Assembly: GCF_003966695.1 (NCBI RefSeq) | Contig: NZ_AP018828.1 | Coordinates: 62,001 to 126,000, forward strand | DNA: 64,000 nucleotides | Direction of reading: 5' to 3' | DNA from: Asticcacaulis excentricus | GTDB lineage: Bacteria; Pseudomonadota; Alphaproteobacteria; Caulobacterales; Caulobacteraceae | Shown: piece by piece, positions 11,662-26,510 of the stretch | How the letters are laid out: the number at the start of each line of letters is the position of its first letter | How positions within the stretch are numbered: the first letter of the stretch is position 1 | Program-made: the position numbers and the translations under genes | Notes under the pieces: model-generated | The model's database searches: none | Told to the model about the DNA's origin: nothing | What the model saw: only the letters and a program-made list of their open reading frames with translations

Positions 11662-12771
11662 ATGACCCGTCGCCCCAACCTGTGGCCTGTTGCAGCACTT
11701 GTCGCGGCCATGACCGCCCTGCCCGTCCTCGCGGCAGAGTCGTCGCTGGAACCGAAGGCCACCGCCGGTCTGCATATGAACGACCTTCAGGCGGTGGGCA
11801 CGCACAACAGCTACAAGATCGCCATTCCGCCGAAGGAACTGGCCCTGATCGCCGCGCGCAACGCTCAGGGGGCGAAGGCGCTCGACTACGGCCACCTACC
11901 TCTGGCAACGCAGCTCGATCTGGGGATGCGTCAGCTTGAAATCGACTTCCTCTACGATCCGGACGGCGGGCGCTATGCCCATCCGCGCCTGCCGCAGCTC
12001 AGCGGCGAACCCTATGACGCCACGGATATGGATAAGCCCGGCTTCAAGGTATTGCACATGCCCGATGCCGATGTGCGCAGCCATTGCCACACCTTCGTCC
12101 AGTGCCTGAGGCAGATCCGCGACTGGTCCGACGCCCACCCCGATCACGTCCCCCTGCTGATCATGATGAACGCCAAGGATGGCGCCCCCAGCCTCGACGG
12201 CGGCGTGACGCCACTCGCTTATGACGCTCAGGCCTTTGAGGCGCTGGACGCTGAAATCCGCTCGGTCTTCGGGCCGGAGCGCCTGATCACGCCGGATCAG
12301 GTGCGCGGTGGGCACAAAACGCTACGTGAGGGGGCGATGGCTGGCGGCTGGCCGACACTCAAGGCGGCGCGCGGCAAGGTCTTCTTCGCGCTGGATGAAG
12401 GTCCGGCAAAGGTCGCCGTCTATATGCGCGGCCACGCCTCGCTGGAGGGCCTGCCCGTCTTCGTCAATTCGGTGTCCGAAGCGGCCGATCACGCCGCCTA
12501 CTTCACCCTCAACGACCCGGTGAAACAGTTTGAGCGCATTCAGGCGGCGGTGAAGGCGGGCTTTGTGGTGCGCACCCGTGCTGACGATTCGACCACCGAA
12601 GCGCGCCGCAACGATCTCAGCCGTTTCACAAAGGCGCTGGCGTCGGGCGCGCAGTATATTTCCACCGACTATCCCACCCCGCGCCCCGAATGGAGCCCCT
12701 ATCAGGTCCGCCTGCCGGACGGCGTCGCGGCCCGTGCCAATCCGCTGCGGGGACAGGCACCGCGGCGTTGA
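11662..12771 (+). CDS. Secreted PI-PLC-like phosphodiesterase (Ca-dependent phosphoinositide phospholipase C family)
   Basis: The 369-aa protein has a signal peptide (ending LPVLAAE) and a TIM-barrel PLC-like domain. Recognisable elements are AVGTHNSYKI (catalytic His loop, near residue 52), QLEIDFLYDPDGGRYAHP (acidic metal-binding strand) and HCHTFVQCLRQIRDW. The C-terminal strand has RTRADDSTTEAR and YISTDYPTP. Family members cleave phosphodiester bonds of inositol or glycerophospho compounds. The ATG at 11662 is preferred, since it opens the signal peptide and is preceded by GAAGGTGAA. It diverges from a TonB receptor, suggesting scavenging. The exact substrate is unknown. Confidence 0.75.
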   Translation: MTRRPNLWPVAALVAAMTALPVLAAESSLEPKATAGLHMNDLQAVGTHNSYKIAIPPKELALIAARNAQGAKALDYGHLPLATQLDLGMRQLEIDFLYDPDGGRYAHPRLPQLSGEPYDATDMDKPGFKVLHMPDADVRSHCHTFVQCLRQIRDWSDAHPDHVPLLIMMNAKDGAPSLDGGVTPLAYDAQAFEALDAEIRSVFGPERLITPDQVRGGHKTLREGAMAGGWPTLKAARGKVFFALDEGPAKVAVYMRGHASLEGLPVFVNSVSEAADHAAYFTLNDPVKQFERIQAAVKAGFVVRTRADDSTTEARRNDLSRFTKALASGAQYISTDYPTPRPEWSPYQVRLPDGVAARANPLRGQAPRR

Positions 12772-13483: not shown

Positions 13484-14488
13484 CTACTTACATATATAGC
13501 CGCGCACGGCCTGCTCGACACTGACGACCAGCGCGCGACGCTCCGCCTCGGTCATCTGTCGCACGTCAGGGGGCAGATGCTCAAAATGCGCCGGGCGTGG
13601 GTCGGCAATGTGCAGCCGGAACATTTCGCGCCAATAGGCCCGATCAGCCTCGCTCAGCCCGGCCATAATCCCCAGCGCCTGATTGAACACCACCGCCGGG
13701 TCCTCCAGCGGATTCGCATAGCCGCCCCACCAGAAATTGGCCAGCACGCCCACCGGCCCTTCGGCCGTGACCTGATGCCACCAATAGCGCGGGATAAATA
13801 GAACATCCCCCGGTTCCAGCGTCACGCTCTGCGCGTGTTCAAAGGCCTCACGCAGGCGCGGGAAGGTTTCGAAATCCGGCGTATCGAGGTCGGCTATGCT
13901 GATCGGCCGTCCGGAGGGCGTGTAACCCAGAGGCCCGATGTACAGATTACCCACCTGCTCCGGCGGGAACAGCAGGAAATGCCGTCTCCCGGCCACCAGA
14001 CAGGCCAGGTTGAGGTCGTGATCGTTGTGCAGGGCCGCCCGTGTTGCGTTGCCGATCCACAGGCGCGGCCCGATCTCTGGCGGCAGCAAGGGCATCGGGT
14101 TTTGCACGGCGAACTCAGGCGCATGGTCGCGGGCCGGCGCCGATTGCAGATAGAGGCCCGGCGGCATCGGATGGCCGCTCAGACGCACGAGCGTCGCCAT
14201 GACTTCGGAGAGGGTCTGCTGCGCGTGACTGAAGTTCAGGGCCTCAAGATCGGGTGTGTAGCCGAACCGCCCTTTCAGGTGCGCACTGGCCGTCAGCACC
14301 CCGGCGGGGCGGCCGTTGTCGAGGCCTTGCAGATAGGCCGCCAGCGACGACACGCCTTCGCGGGCCCGCTGAACCGCCGGCCATTGCGCCACCAGACCAC
14401 GCACCACAAACGGCACGGTCGCCCGGCGGATACGCAACCGTATCTCAGCTTCATCCGCGGCTTTCAGTGCCTCCACGTCGCGGCTCAT
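13484..14488 (-). CDS. JmjC-like cupin (Cupin_8) 2-oxoglutarate/Fe(II) oxygenase
   Basis: A 334-aa protein of the Cupin_8 family. The Fe(II) facial triad is visible as H154-x-D156 (LHNDHDL) and H238 (RYWWHQV). The intervening segment VAGRRHFLLFPP is the family's typical strand with the basic 2-oxoglutarate-binding residue. It resembles the protein at 23153 in layout and motifs (VAGRR.F.LFPP; WWHQV), so the two are probably paralogues flanking the receptor-halogenase locus. Related proteins hydroxylate amino-acid side chains. Its target is unknown. It is divergent from the TonB receptor at 15003. Confidence 0.8.
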   Translation of the reverse strand: MSRDVEALKAADEAEIRLRIRRATVPFVVRGLVAQWPAVQRAREGVSSLAAYLQGLDNGRPAGVLTASAHLKGRFGYTPDLEALNFSHAQQTLSEVMATLVRLSGHPMPPGLYLQSAPARDHAPEFAVQNPMPLLPPEIGPRLWIGNATRAALHNDHDLNLACLVAGRRHFLLFPPEQVGNLYIGPLGYTPSGRPISIADLDTPDFETFPRLREAFEHAQSVTLEPGDVLFIPRYWWHQVTAEGPVGVLANFWWGGYANPLEDPAVVFNQALGIMAGLSEADRAYWREMFRLHIADPRPAHFEHLPPDVRQMTEAERRALVVSVEQAVRGYICK

Positions 14489-15002
14489 CCGGCCTCCTGC
14501 ATACCCATGTAAGGGTGGGGAGATTCGACCGCGCTATCCCCGTAAGTCAAGGCCGTGCGGCTTTTTATCGGTCAAAATGCGCATTTCAAAACGAAACTGA
14601 AAAGATGAAATGCGGCACAAAAAGCACACATGCAGTGCTCCGCTTTAAAAAAATATCAACGATATTGAAGGTTAAGTAAATGTAATTTATGGCTTTTTTA
14701 TATGAGATTCGGTTGATGCCGGATTTTCATGGTAGCGCTAGCAAATAATTTTGAAATCAAATTGGCTTAATGCGTTTTCAAAAACGCAGAGTTGATATAA
14801 TTCTGTAATTGTCAGCGCTGTCAGGCATAGGCCTGTGGTGTAATCCCGTCTGGTCGTGTGACTGGCGGGCAATAAAAAAGTGGATACAGGTTTCGGGAAG
14901 CTCACCAGAGTGGGGGGCATAAGGCGCAATGACGCCTTCATGCTGTTTGCCTCCCCGAAATCTTTTTTTGAGATGAAGAGCGGTCAGGGAGGACTTGAAC
15001 AC
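14489..15002. promoter_or_regulatory. AT-rich divergent control region with two palindromes
   Basis: This 514-bp gap is far richer in A/T than its neighbours. It holds TAGCGCTA (14733-14740) and CAGCGCTG (14813-14820), both centred on the GCGC core common in LacI-family operators and 80 bp apart. It probably carries the promoters of the cupin gene (leftward) and the TonB receptor (rightward). A GGAGGA ribosome-binding site lies just before 15003. No other gene is supported. Confidence 0.5.
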
Positions 15003-18000
15003 ATGACAGTTAAGTTGAAGCACGGCGTTTCGGCTATGGCGCTTCTGATTTCCGCCGGCGTGGCTATGGCCGGCGCGGCACAGGCGCAGACCGCGCCCAA
15101 GGAAGGCGAGCCGCAGGAAGTCGTCGTCGTTGGCGCGCGCAAAGCCTTGCAGAGCGCCCAGCAGATCAAGAAGAATGCCGACACGGTCGTCGATTCGATC
15201 ACGGCCAATGACATCGGGGCTTTCCCGGACAAGTCGGTCGCCGAAGCGCTTCAGCGCGTAGCCGGCATCACGGTCAACCGCTTCGCCGCCACCGGCGACA
15301 CCGCGCACTTCTCGGCCGAACCGTCGGGCGTCGTCGTCCGCGGCCTGCAACAGGTGCGTTCGGAATTCAACGGCCGCGACATCTTCACCGCCGACTCCAA
15401 CCGCGGCCTGTCCTGGTCGGACGTGTCGCCGGAACTGATGGGCGGCGTGGACGTCTATAAGAACCAGACGGCTGAGCTGATCGAAGGCGGTATCGCCGGT
15501 ACGGTCAATCTGCGTACCCGTCTGCCGTTCGACCAGAAGGGCCGCGTGCTGGCCGCGACCGCTGAATATACCTATGGCGATCTCGTCGGTAAGGGCGCCG
15601 CTTCGGTGTCGGGCATCTATGCCGACCGTTGGGACACGGAGCTGGGTGAATTCGGCGTGATGATCAACGCCGCTCACTCGGAAGTCTTCACCAACTCGGA
15701 AGGCGTGCAACTGGGTCGTATGGCGATCCACTCGAACGCCGCTACCTGGGGCACGACCGCCAAACGTTACTACCCGACCGCCATTTCGCTGCGCGACAAT
15801 ATCTATAACCGTATCCGCGACGGCGTAGCTTTTGCCGCTCAATGGAAGAGCAATGACGGCAATATGACCGCCACCTTCCAGTACAACCAGTCGAAGAAGC
15901 AGGAAAAGTGGGAAGAGTACGTCTCGACCGCTTCGACCGGCACCGACATGTGGGCCAAGGATATTGAGTACTTTGCCACGGGTGCGAATGAAACCCAATG
16001 CAAGACGGGCACCACCTGTACCTTCGATTCCAATGGTTTCCTGCAAAAAGGTACGCTCTTAGCCTCGTCTGATGTTTGGTATGGCAATATCGGCGCCCAT
16101 CCCGGTGCAAACTCGCCGACCGGTAACCTGGTCTGTTATTCTTGGGAAAGCTGCGGCGGTTCCCAACGGGGCACGTCTTACGCCACCTCGACCCGCTTCA
16201 GCGACAGCGTCAACGACACAAGGGACGCCTCGTTTAACCTGAAATGGCAGGTCAGCGACAAGCTGTTCACCAGCTTCGACGTTCAGTATGTCGATGCCAT
16301 TCAGACCAATTATGACATCGCCGGGACGCTTTCGACCTTTGCAGACGTCACCTGGGATATGACGGGCGAACACCCGACCTTCACGCTGGCAAAGCCGACC
16401 AGCTTCGTGACGATGCCCGGCGACGTTGCCAACCCGCAAAACTACCGCCTGAACGATCTGATGGATCACGTCACGGATTCGGATGGCAATGAGTTTGCCG
16501 TACGTGCGGACGCCGCCTACAGCTTCGACTCGCCTTGGCTGAATATGCTTAAGTTCGGCGTACGCCATGCCGAACGTGAACAGACCGTGCGCTGGTCTAC
16601 CTACAACTGGGCTAACGTTGTGAACACGTGGTCCAACTATACCGCTGACAACTACTTCATCACAGGCTCCAAGTTCCCCAGCGCTTCGGCCTATGGTGTT
16701 CGTTCCTTCGACGAAGATTTCTATGGCGGCGGTCTGACCAACGCCAATACCGCCGTCTACCTGAACATGGACCTCCTGAGGGACCAGGAAGGTCTGGCGA
16801 ATATGTTTGGCCGTGCGAGCTATAAGCCTCGGACCACTGCCGCGCTTGAACCCCAGACCATTCCGGATCCGAACGACCCGACGAAAACCATCCCGAATCC
16901 GAAGTATGATCCGGATGGCAACGTGTCGAACGTCTGGGTTCCGGTCTGCCGTCGTTCGGGCCGGGTGGACGGGTGCTTCCGTCCGTCCGAAATTGCCGAA
17001 GTGTCCGAAATCACCAACGCCGCCTATCTTCAGTTGAAGTTCGGGGGCGACGACGCGATGCTGTTTGGTAAGTTCCCTGTGACGGGTAATATCGGGGTCC
17101 GCTACGTCGAGACGAAGAACGAAAGCACGGGTGGTATCAATTTCGGCAACCAGATTGCCTACGCGACTGAGCCGACCTCTGTACAGAAAACGCCGCTGGG
17201 TGATGTCACGGTTATCAATGCGTCATACTACGTGACGCAGGCTGATCGTAACTTCATGACGGTCAACAATACCCGCAGTGTCTACAGCATCACGCATAAG
17301 AACTGGCTGCCCAGCTTCAACGCGCGCATTACGCTGGATGATGCCTGGTATCTGCGTGTGGCCGCTTCGCGCGCCATGTCGCGTCCGGATATCGGTAACC
17401 TGAAAGCCTATACGTCCGTGAATGCGTCTCTGCCCAATGAAGCGGATCGCGTCTGCGGCAAGGGCTTTGTGTGTAACTCCGCCGGTCAGATCCAGTCGGT
17501 CGTCATGACCTATACCGGTGATGCCCAGAACCCCTACCTGAAGCCGGTGACGGCGGATCAGTTCGACCTGTCGTTCGAAAACTACTTCTCCTCGACCGGG
17601 TCGTTCACCTTCTCGCTGTTCTATAAGCAGTTCCACGACTACATCACCTACGGCACCTACTTCCGCGACTTCACCAATCAGGGCGTGACCCGCTCGGTGC
17701 GTATGCGTGGTCCGGTCAATGGTGACGGTGGGGCCATCAAGGGTTGGGAACTGGCCTATAAGCGCTTCTTCGACAACCTGCCCTCCCCGTGGAACGGCCT
17801 CGGCATCGACTTCAACTACACCATGCTCAACAACAAGGGCATCAAGTCGTCGAACGTGGTTGTGAACTCGGGTGACGGCACCTCCGGTCAAACCGGTGGC
17901 GGTACGTCGGTGGCGGCCAACTCCTTCACCGATCTGCCGCTGGAAGGTCTGTCTGACAAGACGTTCAACCTGGTGGGTATGTACGAAAAGGGTGCATGGT

Positions 18001-18299
18001 CGGCGCGTCTGGCCTACAACTGGCGTTCGTCGTATCTCGTGACCTCGCAGGATTGCTGTATCGCTCTGCCGATCTGGCAAAAGTCGGCGGGCTTCCTTGA
18101 TGCCCGCCTGGCCTACCGCTTCAACGATCACGTGGAAATGTCGATCGAAGGCACCAACCTGCTCAACACCGAAACCGTTCTTCTGCAACAGGTTGACGGC
18201 CCGACCAATTCGAGCCCGAACGATACGCGCCTGCTGCTGCCGAACGCCTGGTTCCAGAACGATCGCCGCATTCAGGCTCAGGTTCGCCTGAAGTTCTAA
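15003..18299 (+). CDS. Large TonB-dependent receptor of the halogenase locus
   Basis: The 1098-aa protein has a signal peptide (MTVKLKHGVSAMALLISAGVAMAGAAQAQ), a TonB-box-like EPQEVVVVGARK and a plug with DIGAFPDKSVAEALQRVAGITVNRF. A barrel ends in ...RIQAQVRLKF with a C-terminal phenylalanine. It is of the large receptor type that pairs with flavin halogenases and cupins in Caulobacter-like genomes. The ATG at 15003 is chosen because it opens the signal peptide and follows GGAGGA; the open frame from 14880 is an extension. The transported molecule is unknown. The halogenase operon lies 316 bp downstream in the same direction. Confidence 0.93.
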   Translation: MTVKLKHGVSAMALLISAGVAMAGAAQAQTAPKEGEPQEVVVVGARKALQSAQQIKKNADTVVDSITANDIGAFPDKSVAEALQRVAGITVNRFAATGDTAHFSAEPSGVVVRGLQQVRSEFNGRDIFTADSNRGLSWSDVSPELMGGVDVYKNQTAELIEGGIAGTVNLRTRLPFDQKGRVLAATAEYTYGDLVGKGAASVSGIYADRWDTELGEFGVMINAAHSEVFTNSEGVQLGRMAIHSNAATWGTTAKRYYPTAISLRDNIYNRIRDGVAFAAQWKSNDGNMTATFQYNQSKKQEKWEEYVSTASTGTDMWAKDIEYFATGANETQCKTGTTCTFDSNGFLQKGTLLASSDVWYGNIGAHPGANSPTGNLVCYSWESCGGSQRGTSYATSTRFSDSVNDTRDASFNLKWQVSDKLFTSFDVQYVDAIQTNYDIAGTLSTFADVTWDMTGEHPTFTLAKPTSFVTMPGDVANPQNYRLNDLMDHVTDSDGNEFAVRADAAYSFDSPWLNMLKFGVRHAEREQTVRWSTYNWANVVNTWSNYTADNYFITGSKFPSASAYGVRSFDEDFYGGGLTNANTAVYLNMDLLRDQEGLANMFGRASYKPRTTAALEPQTIPDPNDPTKTIPNPKYDPDGNVSNVWVPVCRRSGRVDGCFRPSEIAEVSEITNAAYLQLKFGGDDAMLFGKFPVTGNIGVRYVETKNESTGGINFGNQIAYATEPTSVQKTPLGDVTVINASYYVTQADRNFMTVNNTRSVYSITHKNWLPSFNARITLDDAWYLRVAASRAMSRPDIGNLKAYTSVNASLPNEADRVCGKGFVCNSAGQIQSVVMTYTGDAQNPYLKPVTADQFDLSFENYFSSTGSFTFSLFYKQFHDYITYGTYFRDFTNQGVTRSVRMRGPVNGDGGAIKGWELAYKRFFDNLPSPWNGLGIDFNYTMLNNKGIKSSNVVVNSGDGTSGQTGGGTSVAANSFTDLPLEGLSDKTFNLVGMYEKGAWSARLAYNWRSSYLVTSQDCCIALPIWQKSAGFLDARLAYRFNDHVEMSIEGTNLLNTETVLLQQVDGPTNSSPNDTRLLLPNAWFQNDRRIQAQVRLKF

Positions 18300-18615
18300 T
18301 CGGTACACCGTTCCAAACGGTAGGATGAGGCTGTCCGGGAGGCGTTCTTTCCCGGACAACCCGTTTCCCGCGCAGCGGTACGACCTTTGCGCGCCTCTCC
18401 CTCCGTCATTCACGGAAACCCTTACGGGACGCATCACACGTGGTGCGTCCTGTTTTTATCTGGGCCAATTCTTTTTGGGCCAATTGCTTTTCTGGGGATG
18501 AGACACAGTGACGCGCTTTTTTATCCAAAAGGGGCCTCACAGTTTTCAAAATACCCTCTAAGATCGCGACACTTAAAAAGACCCCACTCATCAGAAGCCA
18601 AAAGGGGAAGCAGGG
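18300..18615 (+). terminator. Terminators and leader between the receptor and the halogenase operon
   Basis: Two hairpins are visible. GTCCGGGA...TCCCGGAC lies at about 18333-18357. GGACGCATCAC-ACG-TGGTGCGTCC followed by TGTTTTT (18427-18456) is a good intrinsic terminator. After it, GGGCCAATT occurs twice within 25 bases. The halogenase gene therefore probably has its own promoter in 18460-18600, although no clear -35/-10 can be named. Confidence 0.65.
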
Positions 18616-20133
18616 ATGACCCCCATTCGCAACATCACCATACTGGGCGGCGGCACGTCCGGCTGGATGACGGCGGCGGTGCTGAGCCGCGCCTTCACAC
18701 CCGATGCCTGCACCATCCGCCTGATCGAGTCCGAAGAGATCGGCATTGTCGGCGTGGGCGAAGCCACCCTGCCGCAGGTACGCGATTTCAACACCTGGCT
18801 TGGCCTTGATGAGGCTGAGTTCATGCGCGCGACCAATGCTACGTTCAAGCTGGGGATCGAATTCCGCGGCTGGGGCACGTCGGGCAGCTATCACCACCCC
18901 TTTGGCGTCCACGGTCAGTCGGCCGGCGGCATCCCCTTCCATCAGTTGTGGTTGAAGGCGCGCACCTTCATGGACCCCGGTTCCATCGAGGACTATGCCT
19001 TCCCCATACGGCTGGCGCGCGAAAACCGCTTCGATTTTCCGGTGGAAGACCCCAAGTCGATCCGTTCCGCCTACGCCTATGCCTACCATTTCGATGCGGT
19101 CCTCTATGCCCGCTATCTGCGCCAGTGGTGCGAGGCGCGCGGCGTGCAGCGCATCGAAGGACAGGTGACCGGCGTCGATCAGAACGCCGAAACCGGCTTT
19201 GTCGAACGCCTGACCCTGGCCAGCGGTGAAAGCGTGGGAGGCGAGTTGTTCATCGACTGCTCCGGTTTTCGCGCCGTCATCGCCGGTCAGGCGCTGAATT
19301 TAGGCTGGGAAGATTGGACGCCGTGGCTGCCGTGCGACCGGGCGCTGGCCGTGCCGTGCGAACGTACCGACGACCTGACGCCCTACACGCGCGCCACCGC
19401 CCGCGAAGCCGGCTGGACGTGGCGCATCCCGCTTCAGCATCGCACCGGCAATGGCTATGTGTTTTCCAGCCGCTTCACCACCGAAGACCGCGCGCGTGAG
19501 GTGCTGCTGGGTGCGCTCGATGCCCCCGCTCAGGCCGAGCCGCGCCTGCTGCGCTTTCAGGCCGGCCGCCGCACGGCGTCGTGGCACAAAAACGTCATCG
19601 CCCTCGGTCTGGCCTCCGGCTTTCTGGAGCCGCTGGAATCGACCAGCATCTACCTGTCGCAGATCGCCCTGACCTTCCTGATGCGCCTGATGCCGGACAC
19701 GCGCTTTGACCCGGCTCTGGCGCGCGAATTCAACCGCCTGATCGACATCGAATATGAGCGGGTGCGCGACTTCCTGATCCTGCACTACCACGCCAATTCG
19801 GCGAGCCAGGGCCCCCTGTGGGACTATGTGCGCTCTATGCCTGTGCCGGACAGCCTGAAGGAAAAGATGGCGCTGTTCCGCCACCGCGGCCACGTTCAGC
19901 AGTACAAGGATGGCCTGTTTTCCCCGGCAAGCTGGATCGCCGTCTTCATGGGGCAGGACGTCATGCCGCAAGCCTACGACCGGCAGGCCGATGGCCTAAG
20001 CGAAGAGGCCCTGACGGGCTATCTGAAAGACCTCAAACGCAAGATCGACAGCAATCTGGCCGTTCTGCCCTCACACGCCGAGTTTGTGGCCGCCCATTGC
20101 TACAATCCGAACAGCGGGATTTCCCATGACTGA
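18616..20133 (+). CDS. Flavin-dependent halogenase (tryptophan halogenase family), apparently intact
   Basis: The 505-aa protein has all family hallmarks: the FAD motif GGGTSGWM (11-18), the catalytic lysine K78 in NATFKLGIEF, the WTWRIP motif (267-272; WxWxIP) that separates halogenases from monooxygenases, and FLEPLEST (336-343) with the conserved acid. The class uses FADH2, O2 and halide to make hypohalite, which lysine directs to an electron-rich ring such as an indole. It needs a separate flavin reductase, not seen here. A strong GGGGAAGCAGGG leader precedes it. It overlaps the next gene by 8 bases (ATGACTGA). Members of TonB-receptor-linked clades are poorly understood, so the substrate is open. 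Confidence 0.93.
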   Translation: MTPIRNITILGGGTSGWMTAAVLSRAFTPDACTIRLIESEEIGIVGVGEATLPQVRDFNTWLGLDEAEFMRATNATFKLGIEFRGWGTSGSYHHPFGVHGQSAGGIPFHQLWLKARTFMDPGSIEDYAFPIRLARENRFDFPVEDPKSIRSAYAYAYHFDAVLYARYLRQWCEARGVQRIEGQVTGVDQNAETGFVERLTLASGESVGGELFIDCSGFRAVIAGQALNLGWEDWTPWLPCDRALAVPCERTDDLTPYTRATAREAGWTWRIPLQHRTGNGYVFSSRFTTEDRAREVLLGALDAPAQAEPRLLRFQAGRRTASWHKNVIALGLASGFLEPLESTSIYLSQIALTFLMRLMPDTRFDPALAREFNRLIDIEYERVRDFLILHYHANSASQGPLWDYVRSMPVPDSLKEKMALFRHRGHVQQYKDGLFSPASWIAVFMGQDVMPQAYDRQADGLSEEALTGYLKDLKRKIDSNLAVLPSHAEFVAAHCYNPNSGISHD

Positions 20134-21619
20134 TACCTCCGTCAGACCGGTGCGCACCGTCGTCATCGTCGGCCGTGACGAGGCCCTGTGGCTGACCGCC
20201 GCAGTATTGCAACGCACCTTTGCCCGCAGCGATCTGAGCTTTACCGCTGTCGAGCTGCCGTCGCTGCTGCGCCCCGGCGAGGTGCTGCCGACACTGGGCA
20301 GTCAGGCCGGCTTCCACGCCCGTCTGGGGCTGGAGGAAGCGGTGCTGATGCGGGCGCTGGGCGCGACCTTTACGCTGGGGCAGCAATATGTTGGGTGGGC
20401 CAAGACCGCGCCGCCGGTCTTTGTCGGTTATTCCAGCACAGGCGTGGCGCTGCACAATGTGCCCTTCCATCATCTGTGGCTGCGGGCCCGCGCCTCCGGC
20501 ATGAACGTGGCGTTTGAGGATTTCGCCATCAATGCCGCCTGTGCCAAGCAGGGGCGTCTGCTGACCCCCGACGCCGACCTCAGCGGCTTTGCCGACGCCG
20601 ATCGCGGCTTTCACCTGCCCGCCGCCCCCTATGCCGAAATGCTGCGGCAGGTGGCAATCAAGCGCGGGGTGCGGCACCTGCCCGCCGCGCACGTGTCGCC
20701 CGTCGTGAAGGGTCCTGAGATGACCGCCGTGGTCCTGTCCGACGGGCAAACAGTAGAAGGCGATCTGTTTATCGACACCACAGGCAGCGACGCACGTCTG
20801 CTCAGCCAGATGCCGGAGACAGGCTTTAGCTCGTGGCGGCAATGGCTACCCTTTGACCGCCTGCTGACCACCTATGCCGCCCCCGCGACGCCGCTTCCGG
20901 CCTATGCGCAGATCACCGCCTTCCGCTCAGGCTGGGCCGGACTGTTCCCGCTGCGCGACTATACCGCTGTGCAACAGGCCTACATCCGCGACGAGCTGTC
21001 TGACGATGAGGCTTTCGAAGCGGCGGCCATGGTGGTGAAGATGAGCCTGCATCCGCAGGCGACAGTGACACCCTTTGAAGCGGGCCGTCGCCCGGCCTGG
21101 TCGGGCAATGTCATCGGGCTGGGCGAAGCCGCCGCCGTGCTCGATCCTTTGGGCACTGCGCGGATGCCCGCCCTGCTGCTCGGTCTGTCGCACCTGACGG
21201 CCCTGTTCCCGCTGGACACATCCGGGCTGGAAAGCGCTGTGTATAACCGCACCGTGGGTCAGGCCTACGACCGTCTGAGGGATGCGCAGATCTGGCTCTA
21301 CAGCCTCAACAAACGCCGCGATCAGCCGGTCTGGGACCATCTGCGCAGCGTCAGCCTGCCGCCGGAACTGGCCTATAAGCGCGAAGTGTTTGCCGCCTGT
21401 GGTCACCTGCCGGTGTACGATGACGAAACCTTCGACGAGGCGTGGTGGATCGCCGCGGGCCTTGGCCACGGGCTGTTTCCCGCCACCCATGATGTGCGCG
21501 CCGATCAGCTTGCGGAACCCGAACTGATCCGCCACTTTCAGACGGCCCTCGGCTATGTGCGCAAGCAGGTCGAGGCCATGCCCACCCCGGATGCCGTATC
21601 ACGGGCAGCGACTGTATAG
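20126..21619 (+). CDS. Degenerate flavin-halogenase paralogue, probable pseudoenzyme
   Basis: This 497-aa protein aligns along its length with its two neighbours (shared segments: LGLEEAVLMRALGATFTLG, VEGDLFIDTTGSDARL, FEAGRRPAWSGNVIGLGEA) but lacks the catalytic signatures. The FAD loop reads VGRDEALW instead of GGGTSGWM. The catalytic lysine position is T83 (ATFTLG). WxWxIP is replaced by WAGLFP. EPLEST is replaced by DPLGTA. The frame is open and full length, so it is a maintained protein, not a pseudogene. It starts at ATG 20126 inside the end of the first halogenase, implying coupled translation. A structural or regulatory partner role is inferred. Confidence 0.85.
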   Translation: MTDTSVRPVRTVVIVGRDEALWLTAAVLQRTFARSDLSFTAVELPSLLRPGEVLPTLGSQAGFHARLGLEEAVLMRALGATFTLGQQYVGWAKTAPPVFVGYSSTGVALHNVPFHHLWLRARASGMNVAFEDFAINAACAKQGRLLTPDADLSGFADADRGFHLPAAPYAEMLRQVAIKRGVRHLPAAHVSPVVKGPEMTAVVLSDGQTVEGDLFIDTTGSDARLLSQMPETGFSSWRQWLPFDRLLTTYAAPATPLPAYAQITAFRSGWAGLFPLRDYTAVQQAYIRDELSDDEAFEAAAMVVKMSLHPQATVTPFEAGRRPAWSGNVIGLGEAAAVLDPLGTARMPALLLGLSHLTALFPLDTSGLESAVYNRTVGQAYDRLRDAQIWLYSLNKRRDQPVWDHLRSVSLPPELAYKREVFAACGHLPVYDDETFDEAWWIAAGLGHGLFPATHDVRADQLAEPELIRHFQTALGYVRKQVEAMPTPDAVSRAATV

Positions 21620-21629
21620 GGTTTATCGG

Positions 21630-23156
21630 ATGCAACAGACCATCAGGAAGATTGTGATCGTTGGGGGCGGCAGCGCCGGATGGATGGCCGCCGCTGCCTT
21701 GGCCAAAACACTGGGGGAGTCGCTCGATATCCATCTGATCGAGTCAGAGGAAATCGGCATTGTCGGTGTGGGCGAAGCCACCATCCCGCCCATCCTCAAA
21801 TACAATGACCTGCTGGGGATCGACGAAGCCACCTTCGTGCGTGAAACCAACGCCACCTACAAGCTGGGGATCGAGTTCGTCGATTGGCGCGCCAAAGGGC
21901 ACAGCTATTTCCACCCCTTTGGCCACAGCGGGCGGGAAATCGAAAGCTTCCCCTTCCATCACTACTGGCTGGCCGACTGGCGACGCCGGGGCGGTGAGTA
22001 CGACTATACGCAGTTCAATCTGGAAACCGTCGCCGCCTATAAGGGGCGCTTCGGGTATCTGCCGGCCGAAGGCGACAAGCCCGGTCTGAACTATGCGTTT
22101 CAGTTCGACGCCGTGCTTTATGCCAAATTCCTGCGCAATTACAGCGCCGAGCGCGGCGTCACCCGCCACGAAGGCCGCATCGTCAGCGTCGAACAGCACC
22201 CTGAAAGCGGCTTTGTGACGGCGGTCGTCACCGCCGATGGCCGCCGCCTTGAAGGCGATCTGTTTATCGACTGCTCCGGTTTCCGTGGCCTGCTGATCGA
22301 AGGAACTCTGAACTGCGGCTATGAGGACTGGTCGCGCTGGCTGCCGATGAACAGCGCCGTGGCCGTGCCCTGTGAGCGCGTCGCCGACATCACACCCTAT
22401 ACCCGTGCCACGGCGCGCGAAGCGGGCTGGACGTGGCGGATTCCGCTGCAACACCGCACCGGCAATGGCTATGTCTTCTCCGATCAGTTCCTCAGCGTCG
22501 AAGACGCCAAAACGCGACTGCTCGGTTGCCTCGACGGCGCGCCTCTGGCCGAGCCGCGCCTGCTGAAATTCGTCACCGGTCACCGCAAGCGCGTGTGGGA
22601 CAAGAATGTGGTGGCCCTGGGTCTGGCCTCTGGCTTCCTTGAGCCGCTGGAATCGACGGCCATCCATCTGGTGCAGTCGGGCATTACCCGCCTTTTGGCC
22701 TTCTTCCCCAAGACAGGGATCGTGCCTTCCGTCGTGGCGCAGTATAATCGCGACGTCCTGTTTGATTACAACAATATCAAGGACTTCCTGATCGCCCACT
22801 ACAAGATCAGCGAACGCGACGACACGCCCTTCTGGCGCTGGGTGCAGGCCATGGAGATGCCCGACAGCCTGAAAGAGCGGCTGGATATGTTCCGCGAAAC
22901 CGCACTGCTGATTGCCCGCGAACCCGAGCTGTTCCGCGAGACGAGCTGGCTGGCGGTCATGATGGGGCAGGGCTTGCTGCCCAAGACCAGTCACCCGATC
23001 GTGGAGACGATCGAAGCCGCCGATCTGCGTCTGCATATGAGCCGCTGGCGCAAGATGCTGGAAAGCCGTGCCGACAGCCTGCCCGGCCACGAAGACTATG
23101 TGCGCCGCTTTGCGCCCTCCGCCGACCTGAAGATGCGCATGGCCAGCGCCGGATGA
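21630..23156 (+). CDS. Flavin-dependent halogenase (tryptophan halogenase family), apparently intact
   Basis: The 508-aa protein keeps GGGSAGWM (12-19), the catalytic K78 (NATYKLGIEF), WTWRIP (267-272) and FLEPLEST. It is closest to the first halogenase: both share VESEEIGIVGVGEAT-like and PYTRATAREAGW segments, so the trio probably arose by tandem duplication. The ATG at 21630 is preferred to the longer frame because the FAD fold begins there. The start is 10 bases after the middle gene's stop, and the end overlaps the cupin start by four bases (ATGA). Expected to work in the cytoplasm with a reduced-flavin supply. Confidence 0.93.
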   Translation: MQQTIRKIVIVGGGSAGWMAAAALAKTLGESLDIHLIESEEIGIVGVGEATIPPILKYNDLLGIDEATFVRETNATYKLGIEFVDWRAKGHSYFHPFGHSGREIESFPFHHYWLADWRRRGGEYDYTQFNLETVAAYKGRFGYLPAEGDKPGLNYAFQFDAVLYAKFLRNYSAERGVTRHEGRIVSVEQHPESGFVTAVVTADGRRLEGDLFIDCSGFRGLLIEGTLNCGYEDWSRWLPMNSAVAVPCERVADITPYTRATAREAGWTWRIPLQHRTGNGYVFSDQFLSVEDAKTRLLGCLDGAPLAEPRLLKFVTGHRKRVWDKNVVALGLASGFLEPLESTAIHLVQSGITRLLAFFPKTGIVPSVVAQYNRDVLFDYNNIKDFLIAHYKISERDDTPFWRWVQAMEMPDSLKERLDMFRETALLIAREPELFRETSWLAVMMGQGLLPKTSHPIVETIEAADLRLHMSRWRKMLESRADSLPGHEDYVRRFAPSADLKMRMASAG

Positions 23157-24145
23157 CACCCGTCCGCGCGATAGAGTCCGTGACGGCGGAGGCCTTTGCG
23201 ACCGTGCAGGCGGCGGCGCAACCGGTCGTCCTGAAGCAACTGGTGGCCGACTGGCCCATCGTGGCCGCCGCCCGGCAATCGGATCAGGCCGTCACGGCGC
23301 TGCTGGCCGATTTCGATGCCGGGCTGAAGGTGCCGCTGTCCATCCTGCCCCCCGAAGCGAACGGGCTTTGTCATTATGACGCCAGCCTGACCGGCGTGAA
23401 TTTCCGCACCACGCCGCAGTGGCTCGAAGACATCTGGCCAAGGCTGCTGTCCCCGCCGACCGACGGCAGCGGCTATTACGTGCAGTCCCTGCCCACCGAA
23501 ACCTACCTGCCGCGCTTTGCCGAGGCGCACGCAATGCCCTTGCTGCCGCCACAGGTTCAGCCGCGCCTGTGGCTGGGCACCCATGTGGCCACCCAGACCC
23601 ATTACGACCTGATGCGCAATATCGCCTGCGTCGTGGCCGGACGCCGCCGCTTCACCCTGTTCCCGCCGGATCAGCAGGCCAATCTCTACCCCGGCCCGGA
23701 CGATTTTACCCCCGGCGGCGCACCGCTCAGCCTGCCCGACATCCGCAACCCGGATTTCGCGCGCTGGCCCCGGCTGCGGGCGGCACTGGACAGCGCGCAG
23801 GTCGCTGAACTGGAACCCGGAGATGCGCTATACATCCCCTATGGCTGGTGGCATCAGGTGCAGTCGCTGGCCCCCTTCAATGCCCTCGTCAATTACTGGT
23901 GGAACGACGCGGACGCCGCCCGCCCCCTGCCCCGACTGGCCTTCAAGGCGGCGCTGGTGGCGCTGAGGGACCTGCCGGACGAACAGAAGGCCGTCTGGCG
24001 TCACATGTTCGAGCTGTTTATCTTTGGCGACAGCGAGGCGGCCATGGCGCACCTGCCGGCTCAGGTGCGCGGGGCCTATGGCGAACTGACGCCCGAACGG
24101 CTGAAGGCGCTTAAAGCCGAAATCGCGGCGGCTTTTAGAGCGTAA
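23153..24145 (+). CDS. JmjC-like cupin (Cupin_8) oxygenase coupled to the halogenases
   Basis: The 330-aa protein has the Fe(II) ligands H150-x-D152 (THYDL) and H234 (GWWHQV), and the VAGRRRFTLFPP strand of Cupin_8. Its start overlaps the stop of the third halogenase (ATGA), the last link of a tightly coupled four-gene operon. A paralogue stands beyond the receptor at 13484. In similar loci such cupins accompany halogenases and TonB receptors, but the shared substrate is not known. The stop codon lies inside the first hairpin of an interspersed repeat. Confidence 0.85.
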   Translation: MTPVRAIESVTAEAFATVQAAAQPVVLKQLVADWPIVAAARQSDQAVTALLADFDAGLKVPLSILPPEANGLCHYDASLTGVNFRTTPQWLEDIWPRLLSPPTDGSGYYVQSLPTETYLPRFAEAHAMPLLPPQVQPRLWLGTHVATQTHYDLMRNIACVVAGRRRFTLFPPDQQANLYPGPDDFTPGGAPLSLPDIRNPDFARWPRLRAALDSAQVAELEPGDALYIPYGWWHQVQSLAPFNALVNYWWNDADAARPLPRLAFKAALVALRDLPDEQKAVWRHMFELFIFGDSEAAMAHLPAQVRGAYGELTPERLKALKAEIAAAFRA

Positions 24146-24245
24146 TGATTTCTACTGGAATCATTACGCTTAAGCCGCCATTGAGGCGGCGGCCAAGGTG
24201 GCGAAGCCGCCGCCCGGCGAGGGACAAAAGCAAAAAATCTAGATC

Positions 24246-25788
24246 GTCGTCTGTGAAGAACGTCCAATTCATTGATTTATAGTTATAAATTGTACTTTTG
24301 AAGGGTTTGGAATTGCCAGAAAAGAACCTGTCTTGATAGGTTTTCTTGCAATTGACGAACGAGTTTTGGCGTGATTCCCTGGTTGATATGTGAGCCGTGG
24401 GAGCGTTGATCGTGCGTCCAAAAGAGCGTCGGGAAACTGGGCAGAATGACATCTTCCAATCACGCCTGGACCAGATTATCGATCTGGGCCACCCTCTTGT
24501 GAAGCTGGCGCAGAAGATCGACTGGGTCTTTCTGGAGACGAAGCTGGGCGCGGCTTACACCGACAGGAAGGGCCGCCCACCGTTGCCGACGCGGTTGATG
24601 GCGGGGCTGGCGATCCTTAAGTCTGCACACGATCTGTCGGACGAGGCGCTATGCGCTCGTTGGCTGGAAAACCCTTATTATCAATACTTCTGCGGTGAGG
24701 AGTTCTTCCGCCATCGCCTGCCGTTTGAGCGCACATCGATCACGCGGTGGCGCCAGCGCATGGGCGAGGATGCCCTGACAGCTCTGGTCCAGGAGAGCCT
24801 GGCTGTGGCCACTCGGACCGGAGCCGCCAAGCCTGCAGACTTCCGCCAGGTGATAGTCGACACGACCGTCCAGCCGAAGAACGTCATGTTTCCGACGGAT
24901 GCGCGGCTTATGCACCGGGCGCGTGAACGTCTGGTCCGTCTGGCCAGGGCCCTGGGCGTCAACCTGCGTCAAACCTATGAGCGGGTCGGCAAGTTGGCCC
25001 TGATCAAGCACCAGCGCTACGCCCATGCCAAACAGTTCAAGCGCGCCAATAAGGCTTTGCGAACCCTGCGCACCCAACTGGGCCGCGTCATCCGTGATAT
25101 TCGCCGCAAGATCGGGACGGACGAAGCCCTGAACGCGGCCTTCGCCTGGCCGCTCTCCCTGGCCAGCCGGGTGCGCGATCAACGCCCGCGCCAACGGGGT
25201 CAGAAAGTCTATTCACTGCACGCTCCGGAAGTCGAGTGCATCGGCAAGGGCAAGGCGCACAAGCCCTATGAGTTCGGCGTCAAGGTCAGCGTCGCAACAC
25301 CCATCCAGCGCTCAAAAGGCGGCCAGTTCGTCGCCCACATCAAGGCCTTGCCCGGCGCACCCTATGACGGTCATACCCTGGAGAAGGTGCTGCCCGAGAT
25401 CGAGAGCCAGATCGGTGTCAATCTGAACCGCATCGTCGCTGACGCTGGCTACAAGGGCCACAACGCTCCTTACAAGCATCGCCTCAAGGTCTTTACCAGT
25501 GGTCAGAAACGCGGCGTCACCGACACTATCAAAAAAGCCCTGCGACGACGGGCCGCGGTCGAACCCGTCATCGGCCATCTCAAAGCCGGCCATCGCATGG
25601 GCCGAAACTACCTCGCACACCGCAGAGGCGACGCCATCAACGCCGTCCTCGCCGCTGCCGGATACAACTTCACCCTGCTCATCAAGTGGATCAGGCTTTT
25701 GTTCGCCTTCGTACTCCCAACCCTCATCTCATCGTTAAGGCGCAAACCAACCCTCCACGCCGCCTAAATCCGGTTCTTCACGGACGAC
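24246..25788 (+). mobile_element. IS5/IS1182-like insertion sequence
   Basis: The element is about 1.54 kb with imperfect terminal inverted repeats: GTCGTCTGTGAAGAAC at the left and the complement of GTTCTTCACGGACGAC at the right (one mismatch). TAGATC borders both ends, consistent with a 4-7 bp target duplication including CTAG; the exact boundary is ambiguous by a few bases. It carries one complete transposase gene and looks intact. Confidence 0.85.
24397..25767 (+). CDS. IS5/IS1182-like DDE transposase
   Basis: The 456-aa protein begins at a GTG (the ATG alternatives are much further in). It has an N-terminal DUF772-type domain (KLGAAYTDRKGRPPLPTRLMAGL... PYYQYFCGEEFF) and a DDE catalytic core. 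The likely acidic residues are D in VIVDTTVQPKN, D in IVADAGYKGH and E in AAVEPVIGHLK. Conserved HKPYEFGVKVSVAT and YDGHTL segments match IS5-superfamily transposases. It is intact, so the element may be mobile. Confidence 0.93.
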   Translation: MGALIVRPKERRETGQNDIFQSRLDQIIDLGHPLVKLAQKIDWVFLETKLGAAYTDRKGRPPLPTRLMAGLAILKSAHDLSDEALCARWLENPYYQYFCGEEFFRHRLPFERTSITRWRQRMGEDALTALVQESLAVATRTGAAKPADFRQVIVDTTVQPKNVMFPTDARLMHRARERLVRLARALGVNLRQTYERVGKLALIKHQRYAHAKQFKRANKALRTLRTQLGRVIRDIRRKIGTDEALNAAFAWPLSLASRVRDQRPRQRGQKVYSLHAPEVECIGKGKAHKPYEFGVKVSVATPIQRSKGGQFVAHIKALPGAPYDGHTLEKVLPEIESQIGVNLNRIVADAGYKGHNAPYKHRLKVFTSGQKRGVTDTIKKALRRRAAVEPVIGHLKAGHRMGRNYLAHRRGDAINAVLAAAGYNFTLLIKWIRLLFAFVLPTLISSLRRKPTLHAA

Positions 25789-25844
25789 TAGATCATTATG
25801 TTTCTACCAGAAATCATAATGATCTAGAAAGCCCAAAACAGTAG

Positions 25845-26510
25845 CTATCGGATACCAAAGAACAGATTGGCCGTCAGGCGACGCGGGTTGCTGGCCTGCA
25901 CCTGACCATAGTGGATTTGTCCAGCCCGGTAAAAGATCAGCCGGTTGAAGCGCGGTTCAATAGCGGCAATGGGCTCAAAAAACTGTGCCCGTGCCGCTTC
26001 ACCGCTGCCGTCAAAACCATCCAGTTCCAGCCGTTTGGCGCGCTCAAAGCTATAGCTGCGACTGGGGGTGATCAGCTCGTGCCCACTGGCCCGATGGCGG
26101 AAAAAGGCCGTACCACCCAGATCGCCCTCAAAAAGGTAATGCACGCTGGCAAAGCTGTTGAGGCTGAAGGCGTCGATATGCGGCGCGGCCTGCCGCACGT
26201 CCATGGCGTCGGGGGCCTGGGTGGCCACGCCAAAAAAGCCAAACAGCGGCAAGGGCTGTGGCGTCACACCAAAATGCGGCAACAGGCGCGGCAGAAGCTC
26301 CGTCGCCACCACCGTCTTATAGGTCTGTGGCAAGGGGGCATTGAGGCCGGGATATCGCGATCCGGGCGCAGGCGTGCGAAAGGCCGCCGCGTCGGCTTCG
26401 GCAATCAGGGCCTGCGGATCGCTGAGCACCTCATCGACGATGATCAGGGGCTGCGCCTCATGGCCCAGAGACTGAACCGTCAAGGTAAGGTGGGGATTGA
26501 GAGAGATCAT
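25845..26510 (-). CDS. DUF6445-like putative Fe(II)/2-oxoglutarate dioxygenase
   Basis: The 221-aa protein shows an H111-x-D113 pair (PHIDAFS) and a distal His in RAGQIHYGQ, followed by RRLTANLFFG with a possible 2-oxoglutarate-binding Arg. This is the layout of small Fe(II) oxygenases of the DUF6445 type, which often sit beside TonB receptors and flavin halogenases in Caulobacter-like genomes. It lies just past the halogenase operon on the other strand, separated by the IS. Its ATG is two bases after the U run of a terminator that ends the efflux operon. Confidence 0.65.
   Translation of the reverse strand: MISLNPHLTLTVQSLGHEAQPLIIVDEVLSDPQALIAEADAAAFRTPAPGSRYPGLNAPLPQTYKTVVATELLPRLLPHFGVTPQPLPLFGFFGVATQAPDAMDVRQAAPHIDAFSLNSFASVHYLFEGDLGGTAFFRHRASGHELITPSRSYSFERAKRLELDGFDGSGEAARAQFFEPIAAIEPRFNRLIFYRAGQIHYGQVQASNPRRLTANLFFGIR

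Follow-up and report, generated by a model that had tools for sequence, protein, structure and literature searches.

A probable pseudo-halogenase retained directly behind an intact halogenase in Asticcacaulis excentricus and its relatives

Inactive paralogues that are kept as subunits of an active enzyme are known from several folds. According to the available excerpt of PMC10211241, FAM20A with FAM20C and S-adenosylmethionine decarboxylase with its inactive homologue are pairs in which the inactive paralogue serves as an allosteric or structural subunit, and the excerpt of PMC13311259 describes KS/CLF as another inactive paralogue kept as a subunit. These pairs have folds other than that of the halogenases, and the words halogenase, flavin, and FAD (flavin adenine dinucleotide) do not occur in the review PMC10211241. 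The nearest case among halogenases is Ams8/Ams9 of the armeniaspirol cluster, for which the same excerpt of PMC13311259 describes an intact halogenase partnered by a halogenase-like protein that lacks the lysine and was judged FAD-blocked; a heterodimer was predicted, and deletion of ams8 reportedly abolished production. StaK is called an inactive halogenase in the excerpt of PMC11727664. Here, we analyzed a 64,000-nucleotide stretch of the Asticcacaulis excentricus genome (contig NZ_AP018828.1, positions 62,001 to 126,000; hereafter the window, with positions counted from its first nucleotide) that carries three consecutive genes of the flavin-dependent halogenase family PF04820. The product of the middle gene is a pseudo-halogenase that, in our judgment, is probably retained for a non-catalytic role as a dedicated subunit of the halogenase whose gene lies directly upstream (halogenase 1), with which it would form a complex that affects activity.

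The window pair resembles Ams8/Ams9 in combining a lysine-less halogenase homologue with an intact halogenase, and StaK, a halogenase homologue reported to be inactive, resembles the middle protein. In the excerpts, however, StaK belongs to a glycopeptide antibiotic cluster for which a conserved pair is not described, and Ams8/Ams9 belong to a single biosynthetic cluster and are compared with PltA, a pyrrole halogenase, whereas the pair described here falls in PF04820, is linked to a TonB-dependent receptor, has lost more motifs, and is conserved across many genera. The solved structures nearest to both halogenase 1 and the middle protein are those of BrvH (6frl), Xcc4156 (6y1w), and the Pseudoalteromonas L11 halogenase (9luq), which, unlike the middle protein, are intact and carry GVGEATI, a type seldom paired with a degenerate copy in the loci studied. 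The available portions of the texts on these three enzymes mention no inactive partner; for BrvH they note another halogenase gene upstream (gene 13, 42.7 percent identical). An inactive halogenase partner has one close precedent (Ams8/Ams9), and a family-scale case was not seen among the papers listed in searches of an open-access library. The same listings, from a library that misses most subscription journals, contained no report of a degenerate PF04820 lineage or partner or of the present receptor-halogenase unit.

The two flanking genes, halogenase 1 (18616..20133, + strand, 505 aa; PF04820 E-value 4.4e-182) and halogenase 3 (21630..23156, + strand, 508 aa; 2.1e-184), retain all hallmarks of the family in a three-protein alignment, namely GGGxxGW (GGGTSGW in halogenase 1), GVGEAT(L/I), the catalytic lysine (K78 in halogenase 1), WTWRIP, and EPLEST. 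The third residue of the Trp1 substrate motif is Leu in halogenase 1 (GVGEATL) and Ile in halogenase 3 (GVGEATI). In the middle gene (20126..21619, + strand, 497 aa; 1.3e-82 over 12-463), the FAD loop GGGTSGW is replaced by GRDEALW (20171..20191), K78 by Thr83 (codon at 20372..20374), WTWRIP by WAGLFP (20933..20950), and EPLEST by DPLGTA (21143..21160), with Gly343 in the place of the catalytic Glu341 of halogenase 1. All four substitutions had been named in the initial annotation of the locus and align column by column with genes 1 and 3. We found a fifth, in which GVGEATL (FAD loop and Trp1 substrate motif) has become GEVLPTL (20276..20296). The GxGxxG loop has thus kept its first glycine and lost two others, and the catalytic lysine, WxWxIP, and the catalytic glutamate of EPLES (here DPLGT) are absent from the middle protein. 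The annotation's wording that every visible catalytic signature had been lost was slightly too strong: five motifs are gone, and G16, E43, and D217 are kept. Its caution that the FAD site or lysine might be shifted but present was not borne out, as no shifted copy of either was seen in the alignments examined. A frameshift or sequencing error was ruled out, the middle frame being open and aligned end to end, with homologues of 98 to ~37 percent identity likewise degenerate. The whole genome contains nine PF04820 genes, among which the middle gene is the only degenerate one by motif criteria.

Largely the same losses were found in 47 middle-gene homologues (46 from the bacterial family, plus L181), the motif states of which, like all those beyond the three-protein alignment, derive from automatic alignments. 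The catalytic glutamate and the glutamate of GVGE were present in 0/47, the catalytic lysine in 5/47, and the second Trp of WxWxIP in 2/47, and the first, second, and third loop glycines in 47, 12, and 5 homologues, respectively. Retained positions include G16 (47/47), the acid at the end of strand 2 as Glu (E43, 44/47), and the Asp of DLFIDxxG (D217, 47/47). Because these three residues and some of the second glycines persist, the middle protein may have remnant nucleotide binding, as far as its motifs indicate. Conservation common to the intact and degenerate kinds was seen in 34 alignment columns, many of them Trp, Gly, or Pro. Nine columns have changed to another conserved residue in the middle family, including I to Q86, N to H64, and Q to H448; residues unlike those of intact halogenases are Q86 (40/47), H64 (43/47), H448 (43/47), and D18 (35/47).

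All three halogenases match PF04820 along its full extent. Membership of the middle protein in the family is clear, with 278.5 bits against a curated cut-off of 21 and a match covering positions 2-457 of the 458 in the profile. NCBIfam models matched the three halogenases only far below their cut-offs, and the Pfam and NCBIfam scans gave no better match of the degenerate proteins to a rival enzyme family. An AlphaFold2 model of the middle protein, built from an alignment of 15 sequences, adopted a halogenase fold with a mean predicted local distance difference test score (pLDDT) of 87.3 and a predicted template modeling score (pTM) of 0.88, and its best Foldseek matches in the PDB were 6frl, 9luq, and 6y1w, with template modeling (TM) scores of 0.91-0.93 by query length. 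The halogenase fold is predicted to be preserved in the middle protein, and the known chemistry, judged by its motifs, is not.

The ratio of nonsynonymous to synonymous substitution rates (dN/dS) of the middle gene was 0.07-0.31 in 13 pairs, some of which are unreliable with dS > 1, and the gene evolved at ~1.7-1.8 times the rate of halogenase 1. Loss of catalytic motifs in an enzyme homologue and purifying selection, the marks of a pseudoenzyme, are both present. Among named genomes, the closest copies (86-98 percent) were from Asticcacaulis, and the middle gene was detected in 21 of the 25 genomes of the genus at a threshold of E 1e-150, with a split copy in one more (G109). Of 199 genomes searched in the family, 100 gave any match, the lower ranks being mostly ordinary halogenases. 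Within the class (385 genomes, E 1e-100), 33 matches were obtained, and the 30 fetched as loci included one clear orthologue beyond the family (G372, another family; 544 bits), again directly behind an intact halogenase. An oddity local to one strain was ruled out by this occurrence in relatives. The description of the middle protein as retained and non-catalytic is strongly supported by the selection estimates, the 21/25 genus genomes, the tree grouping given below, and the residue counts for the catalytic Glu (0/47) and Lys (5/47).

To follow the genomic linkage, we compared 50 neighborhoods (L045-L093 and the window), which were chosen from middle-protein matches and are a fair test for the upstream halogenase 1, not for the presence of the middle protein. 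A full-length degenerate copy was present in 46, a split copy in one (L055), and none in three (L062-L064). An intact halogenase lay directly upstream on the same strand in 46/46 loci with a full-length copy, at a spacing of -8 to +23 nt (starts chosen by script), and directly downstream in 37, being missing there in nine. Of the 46, 44 encoded a receptor (upstream and on the same strand in 38), 31 a Cupin_8 protein, and 20 a DUF6445 protein. A reverse test is fairer than this count, though "best 60" is a choice too: directly behind the best 60 halogenase-1 matches in the 199 family genomes, a degenerate copy was found in 57 cases (54 plus 3 split), one match lay at a contig end, and two lacked a degenerate neighbor. 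Because the pattern recurs in 46/46 loci with a full-length copy, the position of the degenerate copy behind an intact halogenase is not chance. The linkage to an active paralogue that defines an enzyme/pseudoenzyme pair genetically is present in both directions (46/46 and 57/60), and, on genetic evidence, halogenase 1 is supported as the partner of the middle protein. The survey of co-occurrence proposed in the initial annotation accordingly found an intact halogenase upstream of the degenerate paralogue in 46/46 loci; the partner role proposed there gains genetic support from this count, the mirrored trees described next, and the 57/60 of the reverse test, and that support is of a genetic kind.

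In 36 complete triplets, the tree distances of the three genes were closely correlated (Mantel r 0.92-0.93 for the three pairings), with 0/999 permutations as high. When the six motif stretches were left out, the 46 middle homologues still formed one side of a branch (Shimodaira-Hasegawa-like approximate likelihood ratio test, SH-aLRT, 99), and the gene-1 and gene-3 homologues formed separate clades. Under the same omission, all 70 degenerate proteins, those of other branches included, were likewise set apart from the remaining rows by a single branch (SH-aLRT 99, or 88 in the re-rooted file). One split (support 96) united all 72 upstream halogenases with seven other rows, of which five were of the GEGT type, one was at a contig end (L101), and one was partnerless (L112). 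In these data, five rows had been relabeled by hand as upstream halogenases, their degenerate neighbor being split or inside a merged open reading frame, and one EPLKST halogenase first counted as degenerate (in the Trp1 count) was classed as intact in the 70-protein tree and after. A separate GVGEGTF/FKQG halogenase type, distant on the trees, was observed at L076:13637-16648, L079:5980-7587, L100:8817-10418, L119:3570-5210, and L120:9679-11322.

Degenerate proteins occupy the same gene slot (slot 2) beyond the middle family. Twenty-three further ones were identified in further Alphaproteobacteria and, for three loci (L191-L193), in genomes outside that class; 22 of the 23 lie directly behind an intact halogenase. 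In the full set of 70 degenerate proteins, the gene immediately in front encodes an intact halogenase in 69 cases and another degenerate copy in one (L047). The PF04820 domain was found in 10/10 degenerate proteins scanned, the weakest at 3.3e-12. The loss is graded and not uniform: of the 23 other slot-2 proteins, 21 retain the second loop glycine, three the GVGE glutamate, and one the catalytic glutamate, and they extend from the fairly recognizable L189, with GGGVAGW, to L193, which scores 41 bits against our profile. A sister branch (L056-L061) keeps GGGVAGW, GGGVEGW, or GGGVEAW and the lysine in 5/6 and has lost GVGE and the catalytic glutamate. Ten of the 23 are frames of 371-483 aa (L102-L104, L106, L108, L109, L111, L113, L114, and L187), all with gaps at both Trp columns of WxWxIP, and 7/23 lack 55 or more of the 68 positions surrounding WxWxIP and keep most of the N-terminal box and the C-terminal part. 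Such near-complete loss argues for a role without an active-site cavity. The frequency of degenerate neighbors is best gauged from the 30 best-scoring loci, one per genome, five of which had one within the 1.5-kb flanks; this figure is less biased than the 13/20 in regions picked since a degenerate neighbor or cluster had already been seen, which is not a frequency.

Several slot-2 loci showed further peculiarities. In G124, the middle-gene homologue is followed by another degenerate halogenase, one reduced still further (L047:7416-8597, 393-aa frame). Slot-2 genes were split into two frames at L055:7902-9418, L105:7749-9012, and L110:7465-8674, by recent loss or sequencing error. At L104:7338-8885 (G060), the halogenase upstream of the shortened slot-2 protein has EPLKST, with lysine at the position of the catalytic glutamate; its relatives at L102 and L103 are classed as intact, and the EPLKST copy may be dead as well or may reflect an error.

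The paired and unpaired halogenases tend to differ at one position of the substrate site. In the fetched loci, which are enriched for pairs, a degenerate copy followed 59/65 of the intact halogenases in which GVGE(A/S)T precedes Leu or Val (plus 3 with a split copy), compared with 9/126 (plus 2 split) of those with Ile. The correlated position is the third residue of the Trp1 motif, which the available text of PMC8269204 ties to regioselectivity. Since the three nearest solved enzymes (6frl, 6y1w, and 9luq) all have Ile (GVGEATI), the paired halogenase type, as typed by this residue, may be unrepresented among the nearest solved structures.

These results are consistent with the middle protein being a subunit of halogenase 1. 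We infer that it is inactive and in physical complex with halogenase 1. It would most likely replace one protomer of the dimer known from tryptophan halogenase crystals (excerpt of PMC7336383), which offers a ready geometry for a heterodimer of halogenase 1 and the middle protein. Halogenase 1 would provide FAD, lysine, and glutamate and generate the hypohalous species, and the middle protein would assist with a substrate presumably larger than free tryptophan, either by offering a surface for docking or by allosteric support. In the same excerpt, BrvH and Xcc4156 accept indole but do not use free tryptophan, and peptides are put forward as substrates just as a hypothesis; the open substrate site of these related enzymes and the authors' idea of a peptide-sized substrate fit the docking role. 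The wide conservation behind a working halogenase suggests that the middle protein assists the enzyme as a subunit and that its gene is not simply broken. We tentatively extend this proposal to TonB-receptor-linked enzymes of the halogenase-1 type as obligate heteromers in which recruitment of a protein or peptide substrate falls to the pseudo-halogenase, an idea to which we give a limited chance; the co-encoded receptor or its ligand are conceivable examples of such a substrate. If it were true, the enzyme alone should be only weakly active on indole-like model compounds. If an inactive subunit is tied to one halogenase type, the substrate question becomes directly testable, with halogenase 1 assayed with and without the middle protein, and genome mining would gain the rule of expressing both proteins, not the enzyme alone. 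The slot-2 series, from intact-looking to truncated pseudo-halogenases, would provide natural material on how an enzyme becomes a regulatory or structural subunit.

Several observations weigh against a subunit of halogenase 1. Mirrored trees are expected from common ancestry of the locus alone and speak for joint inheritance, not contact, and long-branch attraction could help to group the degenerate rows. Two of the best 60 halogenase-1 matches (L107 and L112) have no degenerate neighbor, and, according to the excerpt of PMC7336383, Xcc4156 may be a monomer in solution. G16, E43, and D217 persist, as does the second loop glycine in 12/47 homologues and 21/23 other slot-2 proteins. Deletions around WxWxIP occur in the other branches only, which makes the argument from them indirect, and Q86, H448, and D18 occur in just 1, 0, and 0 of the 23 other slot-2 proteins and could mean a new activity. 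Taken together, the confinement of the deletions and the residues new to the middle branch led us to ease our confidence in the subunit role slightly and to raise that in a new enzymatic function by as little.

The alternative that survives best is a neofunctionalized enzyme, in which the fold is kept and a rebuilt pocket serves another reaction or cofactor in the same pathway. The conservation of Q86, H64, H448, and D18 in the middle family, three of them (Q86, H448, and D18) nearly restricted to its branch, and the retention of G16, E43, and D217 would suit such an enzyme. We nevertheless consider it unlikely, in view of the same-slot proteins of other branches that lack the WxWxIP region (7/23) or both Trp columns (10/23), losses that argue against a catalytic role of the slot overall, and of the Pfam and NCBIfam scans, which point to no other enzyme family. 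Less likely still is a free-standing binding protein that binds the substrate or product, for transfer or protection, and forms no stable complex with halogenase 1; although a halogenase fold with an altered active-site region and the tight cluster with receptor, halogenases, and cupin would fit, this explanation accounts neither for the linkage being to halogenase 1 and not to halogenase 3 nor for the slot-2 proteins without the WxWxIP region. That the middle protein is a still-active flavin-dependent halogenase with displaced FAD site and lysine is very improbable: its full-length fold and kept G16, E43, and D217 are set against homologues with the lysine in so few cases and with neither the catalytic nor the GVGE glutamate, and against the lack of shifted motifs in the alignments. 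A duplicate that is decaying into a pseudogene, as the faster rate and the split copies in L055 (G109), L105, and L110 might suggest, is hardly credible, being contradicted by the dN/dS of 0.07-0.31 and by a distribution in which the frame is open in 46/47 family loci (L055 being split) and the gene is carried by 21/25 genus genomes, by further genera within the family, and by a single genome from a different family.

The three halogenase genes lie within a compact unit. The middle gene, for which ATG 20126 is the most plausible start rather than an upstream TTG, overlaps halogenase 1 by 8 nt (ATGACTGA), and gene 3 starts (ATG 21630) 10 nt past the middle-gene stop. The annotated coupling of the middle gene to both neighbors therefore holds by overlap for gene 1; gene 3 does not overlap, and any coupling would act through closeness. 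A Cupin_8 (JmjC-like) gene (23153..24145, + strand; PF13621, 4.8e-60) overlaps gene 3 by 4 nt, so the unit comprises at least four genes. Upstream lies the TonB-dependent receptor gene (open reading frame limits 14880..18299, + strand, true start uncertain; scanned 14967-18296; TIGR01782, 3.4e-173) and, divergent from it, a second Cupin_8 gene (13484..14488, - strand; PF13621, 2.5e-59). An intrinsic terminator-like hairpin (18424..18453, + strand) between the receptor and gene 1 is shared by close relatives, as judged by eye; six terminator-like sites were found in the region compared with 4.4 +/- 1.9 in shuffles. Inspection by eye of eight aligned upstream regions revealed no conserved small peptide open reading frame between the receptor and halogenase 1; the hairpin was seen as a shared element. 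The recurrent DUF6445 neighbor is at 25845..26510 (- strand; PF20043, 1.8e-48). Between the cupin and DUF6445 genes, a 1.7-kb insertion (24137-25836) carries a DDE/DUF772 transposase gene (24397-25767), whereas the two flanks are close together in relatives L066 and L067. A gene resembling those for Ca2+-dependent phosphoinositide phospholipase C (11662-12771; PF16670, 2.5e-122) lies upstream of the unit, and a homologue, annotated there as GDPD, is found at equal distance in relatives L066-L069.

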